A DNA stretch of 15,235 nt from positions 1 through 15,235 of the forward strand of contig SKVS01000143.1 in assembly GCA_007129335.1 (NCBI GenBank). Direction: 5' to 3'. The notes under the pieces were generated by a model, which was not told the DNA's origin, did no database searches, and saw only the letters and a list, made by a program, of their open reading frames with translations. The DNA is from Spirochaetaceae bacterium (lineage in GTDB: Bacteria > Spirochaetota > Spirochaetia > DSM-27196 > Salinispiraceae). Shown one piece after another: positions 151 through 4,411 of the stretch. The translations under genes and the position numbers were made by a program. Position 1 is the first letter of the stretch; each line of letters opens with the position of its first letter.

Positions 151-2706
151 TCACTTTGAGGGGGTTATGACGAAGTTAACCAGGCGATCGGGTACCGCTA
201 CAACTTTGACAATGGTTCCCTGGGCAAGATACTCCTGGATTCTTGTGTTTTCCCGGGCAAGGCGTTCGAGTTCATCTTTACCGGTGCCCCGGACCACCAT
301 GATCTTACTCCTTACCTTGCCGTTTACCTGAAGTACCACTTCCAGCTCGTCGTCTATGGTCAGGGCGGGATCGTAGTCAGGAAATGGTTCGTAAGCCAGG
401 GTGGAGGTATGGCCGGTCATTTCCCATAGTTCTTCGGCCAGGTGGGGAGCATAGGGGGCAAGACAGAGAATAAAAGATTCCCATATATCCCGGTGAAGAA
501 CCTCTAGCTTGTTCATTTCGTTTGTACAGATCATCATTTGGCTAATTGCGGTATTAAAATCCAGGTTTTCAGTGTCCTGGCCAACTTTTTTTATTGTTTT
601 ATGAAGGACTCTTTGCAGTTCCAGAGGAGCTTTCTGCTCAGAAAGAGGTTTTTGGGCAATTCTCCAGACCTTGTCCAGGAACCGGTGAATACCAATGAGC
701 CCCTGGGTATTCCACGGCTTGCTCTGCCGGAGGGGGCCCATGAACATTTCATACAGCCTCATGGAATCAGCACCGAATTCCTCAATAATATCATCGGGGT
801 TAATGACGTTTTTCAGGCTCTTTGACATCTTTGCAATAACCTGTTGAACTTCCAGGCCTGTTGAGATTTCTATCCAATGTCCCGGCGCTGTTTCCCGTAC
901 CTCATCTATTGGTACCAAGGTTCCATCGGTTCGTTGGTAGGCGTAAGAGGTTATCATGCCCTGGTTAACCAGTCGGAGATAGGGTTCGGTGGTATTCACC
1001 ACGCCGATGTCATACAGTACCTTGTGCCAGAACCGGGAGTACAGAAGATGGAGAACCGCATGTTCCTGACCTCCCACGTAAAGATCCACGGGCATCCAGT
1101 AATCAATTTTATCCCGGGAGGCGAATTCTTTATCGTTGTGAGGATCCAGATAACGAAGGTAGTACCAGCAACTACCGGCCCATTGAGGCATGGTGTTGGT
1201 TTCCCGTTTACCAGATCTTCCGTCTGGGAGGGTGGTATTTACCCAATCGGTTACGGTAGCAAGGGGACTTTCTCCTGTTCCTGCAGGTTTGTATGACTCG
1301 ACTGCAGGAAGGGTCAGGGGAAGCTCGGACTCGGGTATTGGGTGGATTTCACCGTCTTCATCGATTACCAGAGGAATAGGTTCTCCCCAATACCGTTGAC
1401 GGCTGAAGATCCAGTCTCGCAGTTTGTAATTGATTGCTTTCTTTCCCAGTCCCTGCTGCTCAAGCCAGAGAGTAATTTTTTCCTTACACTCGGCTGTGGT
1501 TAATCCATCGAACTGGCCGGAATTGACGACCCAACCTTCATCGGCAAAGGCTTCTTCCAGAGGTTCTGCAGGATCCTGATCCTTGTGGGATGCAACTACC
1601 CGGATAATATCCAAACCAAACTGTGTCGCAAAGGCATAGTCCCTCTCATCGTGGCCGGGAACCGCCATAATTGCGCCGGTACCATAAGAGATGAGGATAT
1701 AGTCGCTTATCCAAACGGGAATCTCCTGTCCGTTCACCGGATTAATAGCAAAAGCTCCGGTAAAAGCTCCAGTTTTGTCCTTTGCCAGATCGGTACGTTC
1801 CAAATCGCTTTTCAGGGCAGCTTTCTGAATATAGGATTGAACCTCATTCCGTTGTTCGTCTGTGGTAATGTGTGCAACCAGGGGATGCTCGGGAGCGAGA
1901 ACCATATAGGTTGCTCCGAACAGGGTATCAGGTCGGGTTGTGTAAACCTCTATTGTGCTGTTGTGATGGGCAACTTGAAATACTACATTTGCACCTACAC
2001 TTTTCCCGATCCAGTTTCTTTGCATGGCCTTAATGCTTTCGGGCCAATCAAGATCCTCCAGATCATCCAGGAGTCTTTCTGCGTATTCGGTTATTTTGAG
2101 CATCCATTGACGCAAGGGTTTTCGAACCACAGGATGGCCGCCAATTTCGCTCCGAGGGCCTTCGCTGGTTTGGATGATTTCTTCATTGGCGAGAACCGTT
2201 CCCAGGGCTTCACAATACCATACGGGAATTTCAGCAACGTAAGCTAGATCTTTTTTATATAACTGGAGGAAAATCCACTGGGTCCATTTGTAGTAGTCAG
2301 CTTCATGGGTAGATATTTCCCTGTCCCAATCGTAGGAAAAGCCAAGACGCTTTATTTGCTGACGGAATTTTACGATGTTTTGCTTTGTGGTAATTTCCGG
2401 ATGGGTGCCGGTTTTAATCGCGTAGGTCTCAGCAGGGAGGCCGAAGCTGTCGAAACCCATGGGATGAAGAACCTGATGACCCTTCATTCGTAAGAACCGA
2501 CAGTAAATATCGGTTGCGGTATACCCTTCCGGGTGACCCACGTGTAGTCCTGCCCCGCTTGGGTAGGGGAACATGTCCAGGACATAGGTACGTTTTTCTT
2601 TTGGCACAGAGGGGTCTTCGGTGACCCGGAAGGTACTGTTGGTTTCCCAGTACCTCTGCCATTTCGTTTCAATTTCATGGAATGGATATTTCTTCATGGC
2701 GCTCAT
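151..2706 (-). CDS. leuS: Leucyl-tRNA synthetase
   Basis: Class I aminoacyl-tRNA synthetase that charges tRNA-Leu with leucine in the cytoplasm. The product is 851 aa with the chosen start, a normal length for bacterial LeuS. Visible signatures are the HIGH-type motif HVGH at residues 55-58, the CP1 editing domain with the threonine-rich [10 protein letters not shown] segment and the GHDERD motif, the KMSKS loop at 626-630, and a C-terminal anticodon-binding region ending in a QVNGKVR stretch typical of LeuS. The frame stays open to a TTG at 2733. ATG at 2706 is preferred because a GGGAG Shine-Dalgarno sits 10 bases upstream; ATG at 2697 (MKKYPF) is also possible. The gene is downstream of a candidate small RNA and has its own weak promoter at 2801-2829. 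Nothing is missing or broken. Confidence 0.98.
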
Positions 2707-2800
2707 AGTAGCCCAGCTCCCAGTGATGGTCAATCTGAATTACCGGGAACAGCAGGAAATGGGTGGAATTGGATCCCGATTCTTCCGTTGGAATAAAATG

Positions 2801-2829
2801 CCTATAAAGTCCCTTTTGCAAAGCCTCAA
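2801..2829 (-). promoter_or_regulatory. Candidate leuS promoter
   Basis: On the minus strand there is TTGAGG (2824-2829), a 17-base spacer and TATAGG (2801-2806), each matching 4 of 6 consensus positions. It lies between the upstream terminator and leuS and would give a 5' UTR of about 85-90 bases. Spacing is ideal but the hexamers are only fair. Without it, leuS would depend on readthrough of the 2849-2877 terminator. Confidence 0.4.
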
Positions 2830-2840
2830 GTAAAAAAGAC

Positions 2841-2877
2841 AAAAAAAACCCCCGGGAAAGGAGGTAAAACCCGGGGG
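2841..2877 (-). terminator. Strong intrinsic terminator of the small RNA
   Basis: An 8-bp perfect GC stem (CCCCCGGG at 2870-2877 on the minus strand, CCCGGGGG at 2849-2856) closes a 13-base loop and is followed by eight U residues (2841-2848) and further U-rich sequence. The loop contains ACCTCCTTT, the sequence of the 16S rRNA 3' tail. The orientation is clearly minus strand. It ends whatever starts at the 3066-3095 promoter, and also any readthrough from the upstream CBS gene. Confidence 0.9.
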
Positions 2878-3059
2878 ATCGCCGAAATCAACGTACTTTC
2901 CACTGATCTTAGAAAGTAGGTTTTTATAAAAAAAGGAGGTTAGCGCTGCCGAATGGCGACTCTCGCAGCCGCTCTGTTCACGCTCAAAAAACAACAAACG
3001 GATTATTACGTTACAATAGGCTGAACAGTTTTTACATAAAAAATGAAGAAGTCCTAACG
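2841..3059 (-). ncRNA. Candidate structured small RNA with two anti-SD motifs
   Basis: This accounts for most of the 403-base gap between leuS and the CBS gene. A strong promoter (3066-3095) and a strong terminator (2841-2877) bracket about 215 nt with no convincing ORF; the longest minus frame starts at TTG and runs through the terminator. Pairings read by eye: CTGTTCA (3022-3028) with TGAACAG (2974-2980) over a 41-base loop; an 8-bp stem with one bulged G (2965-2973 with 2942-2949); an 8-bp stem including one G-U pair (2911-2918 with 2894-2901); and the terminator hairpin. ACCTCCTTT, identical to the anti-Shine-Dalgarno tail of 16S rRNA, occurs in the unpaired linker (complement of 2932-2940) and again in the terminator loop. 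I do not recognise a known family: no T-box motif, no SRP-type tetraloop stem, no RNase P or tmRNA features. It could instead be a long leuS leader with an attenuator. Function by pairing to ribosome-binding sites is inference. Confidence 0.6.
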
Positions 3060-3065
3060 GCCGGA

Positions 3066-3095
3066 AATATAGTAGATATAAGGCTTTTTTGTCAA
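3066..3095 (-). promoter_or_regulatory. Sigma70-type promoter of the small RNA
   Basis: On the minus strand there is a perfect TTGACA (3090-3095), an 18-base spacer and TATATT (3066-3071, 5 of 6). The predicted start is near 3058-3060. It lies about 40 bases past the stop codon of the upstream CBS gene in AT-rich DNA. This is the best promoter match in the window, and it points at a stretch without a coding gene. Confidence 0.75.
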
Positions 3096-3136
3096 CGCTA
3101 TATAGAGAAAAATTTATTGAAAAGTTTCCTGCTCTG

Positions 3137-4411
3137 TCAGCTCATCCGGGGATCTGATTCATGGGGGAGAAACAGTACCTGGAGTATTTGTTTCCGGGAT
3201 ATCTGTTGAATGGTAAAGGTTCCAAAGTCTGTTGGAATAGAGTCTCCCTGTGCGGGGAAGGATTCAGTGAGACTCGACAGGAACCCTCCAACAGTTTCTA
3301 TTGATTTATCGTGGGGTATTTCGTGGCCAAGGACATCTTCAAGGACGTGAATCGGGGTATCCCCCTGGATGGAATAGCCTGCTTCGTCTTTTACAATTTT
3401 CTTAGCCTGCTTTTCTTCATTCTCATCGTACAGTTCTCCAATAATCTCCTCCACCAGGTCTTCCATGGTTACAATGCCCGCAAGCCCGCCGTATTCATCA
3501 AGAACAATAGCCATGTTCAACCGCTCGCTTTTCAGCTTTCCAAAGACCCGGTGAATTTTCCAGCTTTCGGGAACCACAACCGGAGGTAGCAAGAGATCCT
3601 TCAGGGTAAGATCCTGATCTTCCTTTCCCTGATATTTGGGTGAATACAAATGCTTAATAACATCCTTTTCCAGAATGACTCCCACGATATGTTCGGGATC
3701 CTTGTGAAAAACCGGTACCCGGGAATATCCTGCATGGGTTATGAGCTGAAGCGCTTCGTCTAAGGGCATGGTTTGTGGCAGGCTGAATACCTTGGTTCGA
3801 TGAGTCATAATTGCATGGACGCTTACATCGTTGAAACGAAATATGCTTTTTACCATGCGGGTGCGATAGTTTTCCAGTATACCGATGTTTTCTGCGTGCT
3901 TGACCATATGGAGGATTCCGTCCAGGGTCAAATGGGTTCTGGGGTTTTTCTTGCTCAGGGTTTGAATAGCCCGACTCAGAGAGGCAAGAATCCAGATCAG
4001 TGGTGCAAAGATAAAAGATAACAGGGATATAATTCGGGCAGTATGGGTTACAATGAACACATTGTGGAGAATGGCCAGCTGCTTGGGCATGATTTCTCCA
4101 AAAACCAGTATGAGCAGGGTAAGTATTCCGGTAGTTATTCCCAGGGCGGCACTGCCGAAGAGTCTAATAGTAAGGTCGGTAGAGAGAACCGATATACCAA
4201 TATTCACCAGGTTGTTTCCAATGAGGACCGTGGCAAGCAGTATGTCCGGCCTGGAGTGGAGTTTTTCAACCCTCTTTCCTTGTTTTGGGTGATGTTTTTT
4301 TATTGTTTCAATATCCATGATGGAAAGACTGGTGAATGCTGTCTCGGTACCAGAAAAAAAAGAGGAAAGTATGAGGAGAAAAAAAAGAATAAAGAGGTGG
4401 CTGCTCAGCAT
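3137..4411 (-). CDS. CNNM/CorC-type membrane protein (DUF21, CBS pair, CorC_HlyC)
   Basis: A 424-aa inner-membrane protein of the family annotated as hemolysin C or CorC-like. Known members are linked to magnesium or cobalt efflux and divalent-metal homeostasis; the substrate here is not known. Residues 1-150 form the DUF21 membrane domain, with hydrophobic segments near 4-20, 57-80, 88-104 and 122-147 and the GEIMPK motif at 105-110. A CBS pair follows at about 200-325, with the diagnostic DEYGG at 305-309. The C-terminal CorC_HlyC domain covers about 340-415. Length and order are normal. It lies 57 bases downstream of the thioredoxin stop on the same strand and is probably co-transcribed with it. 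A weak AGGG Shine-Dalgarno 7 bases before ATG is sequestered, together with the start codon, in an 8-bp hairpin (4399-4420), which suggests translational control. Confidence 0.93.
   Translation of the reverse strand: MLSSHLFILFFLLILSSFFSGTETAFTSLSIMDIETIKKHHPKQGKRVEKLHSRPDILLATVLIGNNLVNIGISVLSTDLTIRLFGSAALGITTGILTLLILVFGEIMPKQLAILHNVFIVTHTARIISLLSFIFAPLIWILASLSRAIQTLSKKNPRTHLTLDGILHMVKHAENIGILENYRTRMVKSIFRFNDVSVHAIMTHRTKVFSLPQTMPLDEALQLITHAGYSRVPVFHKDPEHIVGVILEKDVIKHLYSPKYQGKEDQDLTLKDLLLPPVVVPESWKIHRVFGKLKSERLNMAIVLDEYGGLAGIVTMEDLVEEIIGELYDENEEKQAKKIVKDEAGYSIQGDTPIHVLEDVLGHEIPHDKSIETVGGFLSSLTESFPAQGDSIPTDFGTFTIQQISRKQILQVLFLPHESDPRMS

Follow-up and report, generated by a model that had tools for sequence, protein, structure and literature searches.

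A small RNA of spirochaetes with loops resembling the 16S rRNA tail and an apparent link to an ECF sigma factor

Introduction

In the stretch of DNA analysed here (the window; 15,235 nucleotides, contig SKVS01000143.1 of a Spirochaetaceae bacterium), a 260-base stretch lies between a minus-strand gene for a CorC/CNNM-type CBS-domain protein (4411-3137) and, 3' of the stretch on the same strand, leuS (2733/2694-151; NCBIfam leuS_bact match). What does this stretch encode, what switches it on and what does it act upon? A first-pass annotation had proposed a small RNA with two copies of the anti-Shine-Dalgarno (anti-SD) tail of 16S rRNA. This was borne out: the minus strand at 2841-3095 encodes a small RNA whose two sites are kept in close relatives and recur elsewhere. 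Judged from its sequence, it is an unnamed small RNA of many spirochaetes whose loops copy the mRNA-recognising tip of the ribosome. In this organism a membrane-stress sigma factor appears to turn the RNA on, probably so that the production of exported proteins is shut down. No publication on the RNA was found in a literature search that mostly excluded subscription journals.

Results

The promoter TTGACA-18-TATATT claimed earlier was found at 3095-3066 on the minus strand (11 of 12 matches). This sigma-70-like box is also present in the relative G002 and weakly in G003, and it was not seen in G001. The first-pass annotation overlooked a second promoter, of ECF type, which was detected by motif search at 2989-3015 of the same strand (TGTAAC, 3015-3010, and GTTGTTT, 2995-2989, separated by 14 nt; the core motif TGTAAC-N14-GTTGTT spans 3015-2990). 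The sigma-70-like promoter would give a transcript of about 215-220 nt, while the ECF-type promoter predicts a start near 2983 and an RNA of about 140 nt contained in the 215-nt one. Both promoters may be in use in the window. The element GTTAGGACTTCTTCATTT, located just 3' of the sigma-70-like promoter (3060-3038, minus strand), is common to the window and G002; part of it is kept in G003 as GGGACTTCTTCATG, and it was not seen in G001 (L003, L004). The longer transcript would have this element at its 5' end. An inverted repeat, CTGTTC (3028-3023)/GAACAG (2979-2974), flanks the ECF promoter in the window as well as in G001 and G002. Its two arms could pair as a stem in the longer RNA, or they could serve as an operator.

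The transcript contains ACCUCCUUU twice on the minus strand, in an unpaired linker of the predicted fold (site 1, 2932-2940) and in the terminator loop (site 2, 2857-2865), which is the most conserved piece of the RNA. The window holds exactly two copies of ACCTCCTTT (2940-2932 and 2865-2857). The two sites are separated by a 9-bp hairpin with an apical GAUCAG (2894-2918, minus strand) and by a small 5-bp hairpin before the terminator (2880-2893, minus strand; from prediction only). The 9-bp hairpin comes from the predicted fold and from comparison with G001 and G002, in which the hairpins at the same place have another stem sequence and a GAGCAGT apex. The intrinsic terminator (2841-2877, minus strand) is the 8-bp GC terminator with U8 described earlier, with its stem at 2877-2870/2856-2849, a 13-nt loop at 2869-2857 and U8 at 2848-2841. 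The several hairpins ascribed to the transcript are present in the sequence, according to the folding model. The placement of the sites in an unpaired linker and in the 13-base terminator loop agrees with the predicted fold of the 143-nt form, where site 1 is unpaired and site 2 lies in the terminator loop. The absence of a convincing ORF also held, as the sole minus-strand ORF listed here is a TTG-started frame of 85 aa that runs through the terminator. Folding energy was only modestly unusual (z -1.8); this is weak evidence, and consequently the case for the RNA rests on conservation.

Comparison with Rfam, 6S RNA included, matched no family: cmscan against Rfam 15 gave 0 matches in the window at the gathering score, and nothing over the cut-off for this element in 2700-3200 at E <= 10. 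In 18 related loci, only bacterial SRP RNA was matched at the gathering score, beside two of the loci.

The 260 bases were used as a blastn query against 41 genomes (the window's own included) from eight families of one order. A match with E < 0.2 covering part of the terminator (query 224-260) was present in 37 of the 41 genomes. The matches in G031 and G034 (E > 0.6) look like chance, and there were none in G023 and G036; G031 and G036 do hold the RNA, which was found there via its promoter. The BLASTN comparison with relatives that had been proposed as a check thus found the terminator segment conserved, and both sites survive in the nearest relatives (G001 and G002), together with the intervening hairpin, whose stem sequences are changed. 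A third relative in the family (G003) kept only the terminator-loop site. Of the refuting outcomes named earlier, those open to sequence comparison, such as loss of the two sites in relatives or a match to a known family, thus did not come about.

A pattern scan for the terminator loop, using one genome per species, returned at least 118 loci, at least 107 of them in Spirochaetota. Among the matches listed, in 106 of the 107 Spirochaetota loci the hairpin was followed by at least four consecutive T, and 11 loci outside the phylum were set aside (10 without a T-run and one Cloacimonadota bin with it). The locus L177, in a record titled Candidatus Cloacimonadota, has the hairpin, the T-run and a second site, is Sphaerochaeta-like, and is either a binning error or a transfer. 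The constant core is the loop ACCTCCTT(T), while the letters of the stem vary with pairing kept (compensatory changes); the loop is more constant than the stem. ACCTCCTT was invariant in 67 unlike hairpins; as the pattern search required ACCTCCTT, only L209, L210 and the blastn set count as independent. Likewise, the pair counts come from hairpins picked partly for their pairing, and therefore illustrate covariation and do not prove it. The part conserved across the class is generic (UUU ... ACCUCCUUU), with letters in between that vary by lineage. Conservation is poor in the RNA's 5' half, and for several lineages nothing but the hairpin is clearly shared.

In 31 of the 107 Spirochaetota loci among the matches listed, a second CCTCCTT stands no more than 70 nt upstream, whereas an equally sized control window gave 0. 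This second site occurs in three layouts: an open linker, as in the window; a small hairpin (CATC-GACCUCCUUUU-GATG, 13 aligned loci); and a tandem full-size hairpin, with two complete anti-SD-loop hairpins in L448 (G046) and L450 (G181). For a structure-based model, RNAalifold gave no consensus pair, MAFFT having shifted the stems; consequently, the model (R1) is sequence-only. With R1, 40 of the 392 genomes sampled from the phylum gave a terminator match at E <= 0.001, which is a lower bound because stricter filters were applied. Taken together, there is very little doubt that this is a real, conserved and unannotated small RNA.

The motif TGTAAC-N14-GTTGTT had 42 matches, in 34 of the 41 genomes (6 for the reversed pattern). 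All 42 were classified: 18 precede the RNA, 16 directly precede an ECF sigma gene (with the ATG 5-16 nt past the motif), 3 precede one kind of exported protein, 1 another exported protein, and 4 are unclear. At three loci (L047, L208 and L072, three genomes) the motif lies before a large exported protein with an (S/P)xNxDGxQD-like N-terminal motif, a further member of the presumed regulon. The RNAs at L209 and L210 were found by their promoter alone and both have the loop, so the promoter link is free of circularity. L209 (G031) is minimal, consisting of the ECF-type promoter, about 30 nt and the anti-SD terminator hairpin; G031 also holds another copy, L050. At some loci the promoter lies 24-60 nt upstream of the hairpin, with little room for anything besides hairpins.

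The window's own genome, which is 58% complete, contains an ECF gene (G000:C330; 64% identical to the first query) with TGTAAC-N15-ATTGTTT just upstream, and its product passes the score cut-off for the sigma70-ECF family. A site of this kind also precedes the sigma gene in G001, G002, G003 and G007. The operon order is the ECF sigma gene, a protein with one hydrophobic segment and an exported protein. The protein with one hydrophobic segment, which had no Pfam or NCBIfam match, is read by its position as an anti-sigma factor. The exported protein at the operon end (L195 in the window's own genome, L062-L067, L073 and L074) has a shared ...TFTPY...QGQTW... motif, and the scanned copies matched nothing in Pfam or NCBIfam; it is a candidate envelope sensor or effector. 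From this operon make-up, we infer that the sigma factor responds to envelope stress.

A relaxed form of the motif was present within 320 nt upstream in 34 of the 107 Spirochaetota loci among the matches listed, while the controls over the same 107 loci gave 0 (reversed), 0 (downstream) and 0 (reversed downstream). In the 392 genomes of the phylum, the ECF gene (E <= 1e-30) was present in 38 of the 40 RNA-bearing genomes vs. 134 of the 352 others, an association that is confounded by shared ancestry and in which absence of the RNA was called by the sequence-only model. Many genomes of family f10 have an ECF ortholog (E <= 1e-30) and no RNA by that model; the RNA there was either lost, diverged or missed.

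The ECF motif was absent at 73 of the 107 Spirochaetota loci among the matches listed. The RNAs of Sphaerochaeta and of termite-gut treponemes lack it and often have a TTGAC-type box instead. Among 20 regions upstream of sigma genes, the motif was present in 6, all from the window's order, and in none of the other 14; 12 of the 13 or more ECF genes examined in termite-gut treponemes lacked it. Within the order, RNA copies without the motif include the one beside leuS in G003, that in G007 and one each in G021 and G026. Motif-linked RNAs do occur in other lineages (e.g. L103, L128, L131, L141, L150, L437, L438 and L453). The cultured relative Alkalispirochaeta alkalica also has a copy with the motif (L121). 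As the motif is missing in some lineages, the ECF wiring is borne out by motif for the window's order and a few others, not for the whole class. A promoter motif common to the RNA and the autoregulated ECF gene, as expected of ECF-dependent envelope-stress sRNAs as a functional class, was found across several families, in this order and in some other lineages. From these sequence comparisons, the RNA is very probably under the control of an autoregulated ECF factor in this lineage.

The loop equals the 16S tail of the relative G002, GGATCACCTCCTTTCT, and would thus pair with AAAGGAGGU; this G002 tail agrees with the earlier remark that the second copy continues with C like the rRNA. The 16S-tail pattern GGATCACCTCCTTT-CTA had no match in 6 genomes, and a shorter pattern matched a true 16S end only in G002, the match in G003 being inside a coding gene. 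The search for complementary gene starts (AAAGGAGGT-N3-8-ATG) gave 147 matches in 45 genomes, a modest excess over the 107 of the reversed control. With the full 9-nt complement at this number of starts, the action as a global repressor suggested earlier is doubtful.

We fetched 127 of the 147 matches; ORFs shorter than 120 aa were dropped, as were entries whose first 40 residues duplicated those of another. An ORF reaching 120 aa begins at 82 of the 127, and 50 of these 82 had a strongly hydrophobic N-terminus, compared to 15 of 72 ORFs with another GGAGG site (Fisher p 6e-7) and to 52 of 262 ORFs that had an SD of any kind; as the hydrophobicity score is crude and the background imperfectly matched (ORFs of at least 120 aa vs. 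200 aa, partly different genomes), this target bias is support, not proof. Alternatively, the bias may arise because exported proteins that are abundant simply possess good ribosome sites. The hydrophobic share was alike in the order (33/54) and in the wider class (17/28). The exported targets scanned were all ABC solute-binding proteins (6 of 6). Another control, GGAGGTGAT-N0-5-ATG, was intended to have equal strength and less match to the RNA, and gave 70 loci, 22 ORFs of at least 120 aa and 3 hydrophobic N-termini. Most of its matches are not gene starts, which makes it a poor control, and the second background was used for this reason.

Hfq (PF17209) was found in 0 of the 41 genomes by a search that, as a control, detects it in E. 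coli and B. subtilis; over 14 named genomes this control gave Hfq rings in 5. The 41 genomes thus give no support to an Hfq-dependent trans-acting sRNA, and pairing would consequently have to manage without Hfq. The high C content of the loop would permit such Hfq-free pairing.

Discussion

On balance, we consider it probable that the whole chain is that of an Hfq-independent, ECF-controlled RNA which blocks the ribosome sites of envelope-protein mRNAs. The RNA would be a trans-acting sRNA, the non-coding arm of an ECF sigma-factor (envelope-stress) regulon. Once released, the sigma factor would transcribe its own operon and the RNA, whose 16S-tail-like loops would pair with complete Shine-Dalgarno sequences and block initiation, working without Hfq. 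The mRNAs of solute-binding and membrane proteins would be hit hardest, and the envelope load would fall as a result of their repression. The sigma-70-like promoter of the window may supply a basal level.

A broader reading, to which we would give somewhat less than an even chance, is that of an ancient Hfq-independent RNA arm of the envelope-stress response governed by ECF factors in Spirochaetota, in which mimicry of the 16S tail provides a seed without gene-by-gene evolution. Complete SDs would be rare and located mostly before exported or membrane proteins, so that a generic anti-SD loop would automatically be envelope-selective. As part of this same tentative reading, lineages would have re-wired the promoter (ECF or sigma-70-like) and rebuilt the second site in at least three ways, while the loop was kept.

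The generic nature of the part conserved across the class (the UUU and the anti-SD site), together with the recurrence of two or more loops per RNA in three layouts, would also suit a broad decoy, in which the 16S-tail mimic competes for SD sequences generally and damps all translation under stress. We consider this unlikely, since full complements at gene starts are rare, only modestly exceed the reversed control and are biased to envelope proteins, and since the sRNA would need numbers like those of 16S rRNA to affect everything. The loops might instead titrate a protein that binds the 16S 3' end, as CsrB-type RNAs do with CsrA. Era, a ribosomal protein and an initiation factor are candidate binders of this end. 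In this family the loop matches the 16S tail up to and including the C that follows, and one lineage (L448, L450) has two complete hairpins in tandem, as a protein decoy could have. But conservation ends at the anti-SD and does not reach the preceding GAUCA (GGATCACC in 16S), the loop letters vary, and the envelope bias of the complementary starts would be a coincidence; the chance that this is the right explanation is small.

Two further explanations deny the RNA a role in trans, and both are highly improbable. In one, the RNA would act in cis as a leader or attenuator of leuS, the next gene downstream on its strand: across most of the window's order the CorC-type gene and leuS flank the element, and its terminator lies about 110 bases upstream of the leuS reading frame of the window. 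However, leuS is nearby at only 26 of the 107 loci of the class among the matches listed, copies in family f8 adjoin unrelated genes and have the same promoter, and no T-box or other leader family was matched. A T-box/leuS leader was rejected since the element is found at other places in other lineages and in family f8. In the other, which we rate lowest of all, only a terminator is conserved: a favoured hairpin would serve repeatedly to end transcripts that are unrelated, and would itself regulate nothing. The hairpin is indeed the sole clearly shared part in several lineages, and G003 has a single site. Yet termination does not need the loop, which is more constant than the stem; a number of loci (e.g. 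L209) have a dedicated promoter 24-60 nt upstream; and second copies of the loop motif are enriched upstream (31 of 107 vs. 0, among the matches listed).

If the favoured account of an ECF-controlled RNA acting on envelope-protein mRNAs is true, spirochaetes possess an RNA arm of sigma-E type, a counterpart of the enterobacterial and fusobacterial ones, within a clade where no Hfq was detected. A generic anti-SD seed would let one RNA regulate a physiological class of genes. The promoter motif and the loop would be a conserved handle for ECF regulons and regulatory RNAs in a phylum poor in RNA annotation.

The enterobacterial sigma-E sRNAs (MicA, RybB and others) repress outer-membrane proteins, need Hfq and have 5' seeds. 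The spirochaete RNA resembles them in being the RNA arm of a presumed sigma-E-type regulon, and differs in the lack of Hfq in the 41 genomes and in its seed, located in the terminator loop. Alphaproteobacterial cuckoo RNAs (CcsR type) have anti-SD motifs in more than one loop and are under stress sigma control. Anti-SD motifs in several loops are common to these and to the spirochaete RNA, whereas motif, layout and phylum are other, and there is no Rfam match at the gathering score. RepG of Helicobacter reportedly uses a C/U-rich terminator loop as its pairing site. RepG is reported to pair with a variable G-repeat in one leader (PMC8295292); the spirochaete RNA shares the C/U-rich terminator loop, which unlike that of RepG fits the SD consensus and often occurs twice. 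The analogies drawn earlier with RepG and the cuckoo RNAs thus stand as a resemblance of the pairing motif, and they fail as kinship.

FoxI and FoxJ of Fusobacterium (PMC11005410) depend for their transcription on an autoregulated ECF (sigma-E) factor; their C-stretch represses abundant envelope proteins such as FomA and, in the case of FoxI, also the solute-binding protein MglB. The spirochaete RNA is likewise very probably ECF-driven, with a C-rich seed and envelope targets, these last being predicted; it belongs to another phylum, and the Rfam comparison pointed to no kinship (no match at the gathering score). LhrC1-5 of Listeria are induced by cell-envelope stress under the control of the two-component system LisRK, and several CU-rich sites with a UCCC motif (loop, linker and terminator loop) pair with the G-rich ribosome site of envelope-protein mRNAs (PMC4132741). 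Multiple CU-rich sites, the ribosome sites of envelope proteins and envelope stress, the latter two predicted here, recur in the spirochaete RNA, which differs from LhrC in its probable ECF instead of LisRK control and in a full 16S-tail ACCUCCUUU instead of UCCC. Membership in the LhrC family (RF00616) was rejected (17.9 bits vs. a gathering score of 110, E 4.2). The best reading is that the spirochaete RNA works like LhrC and FoxI, yet forms a separate family.
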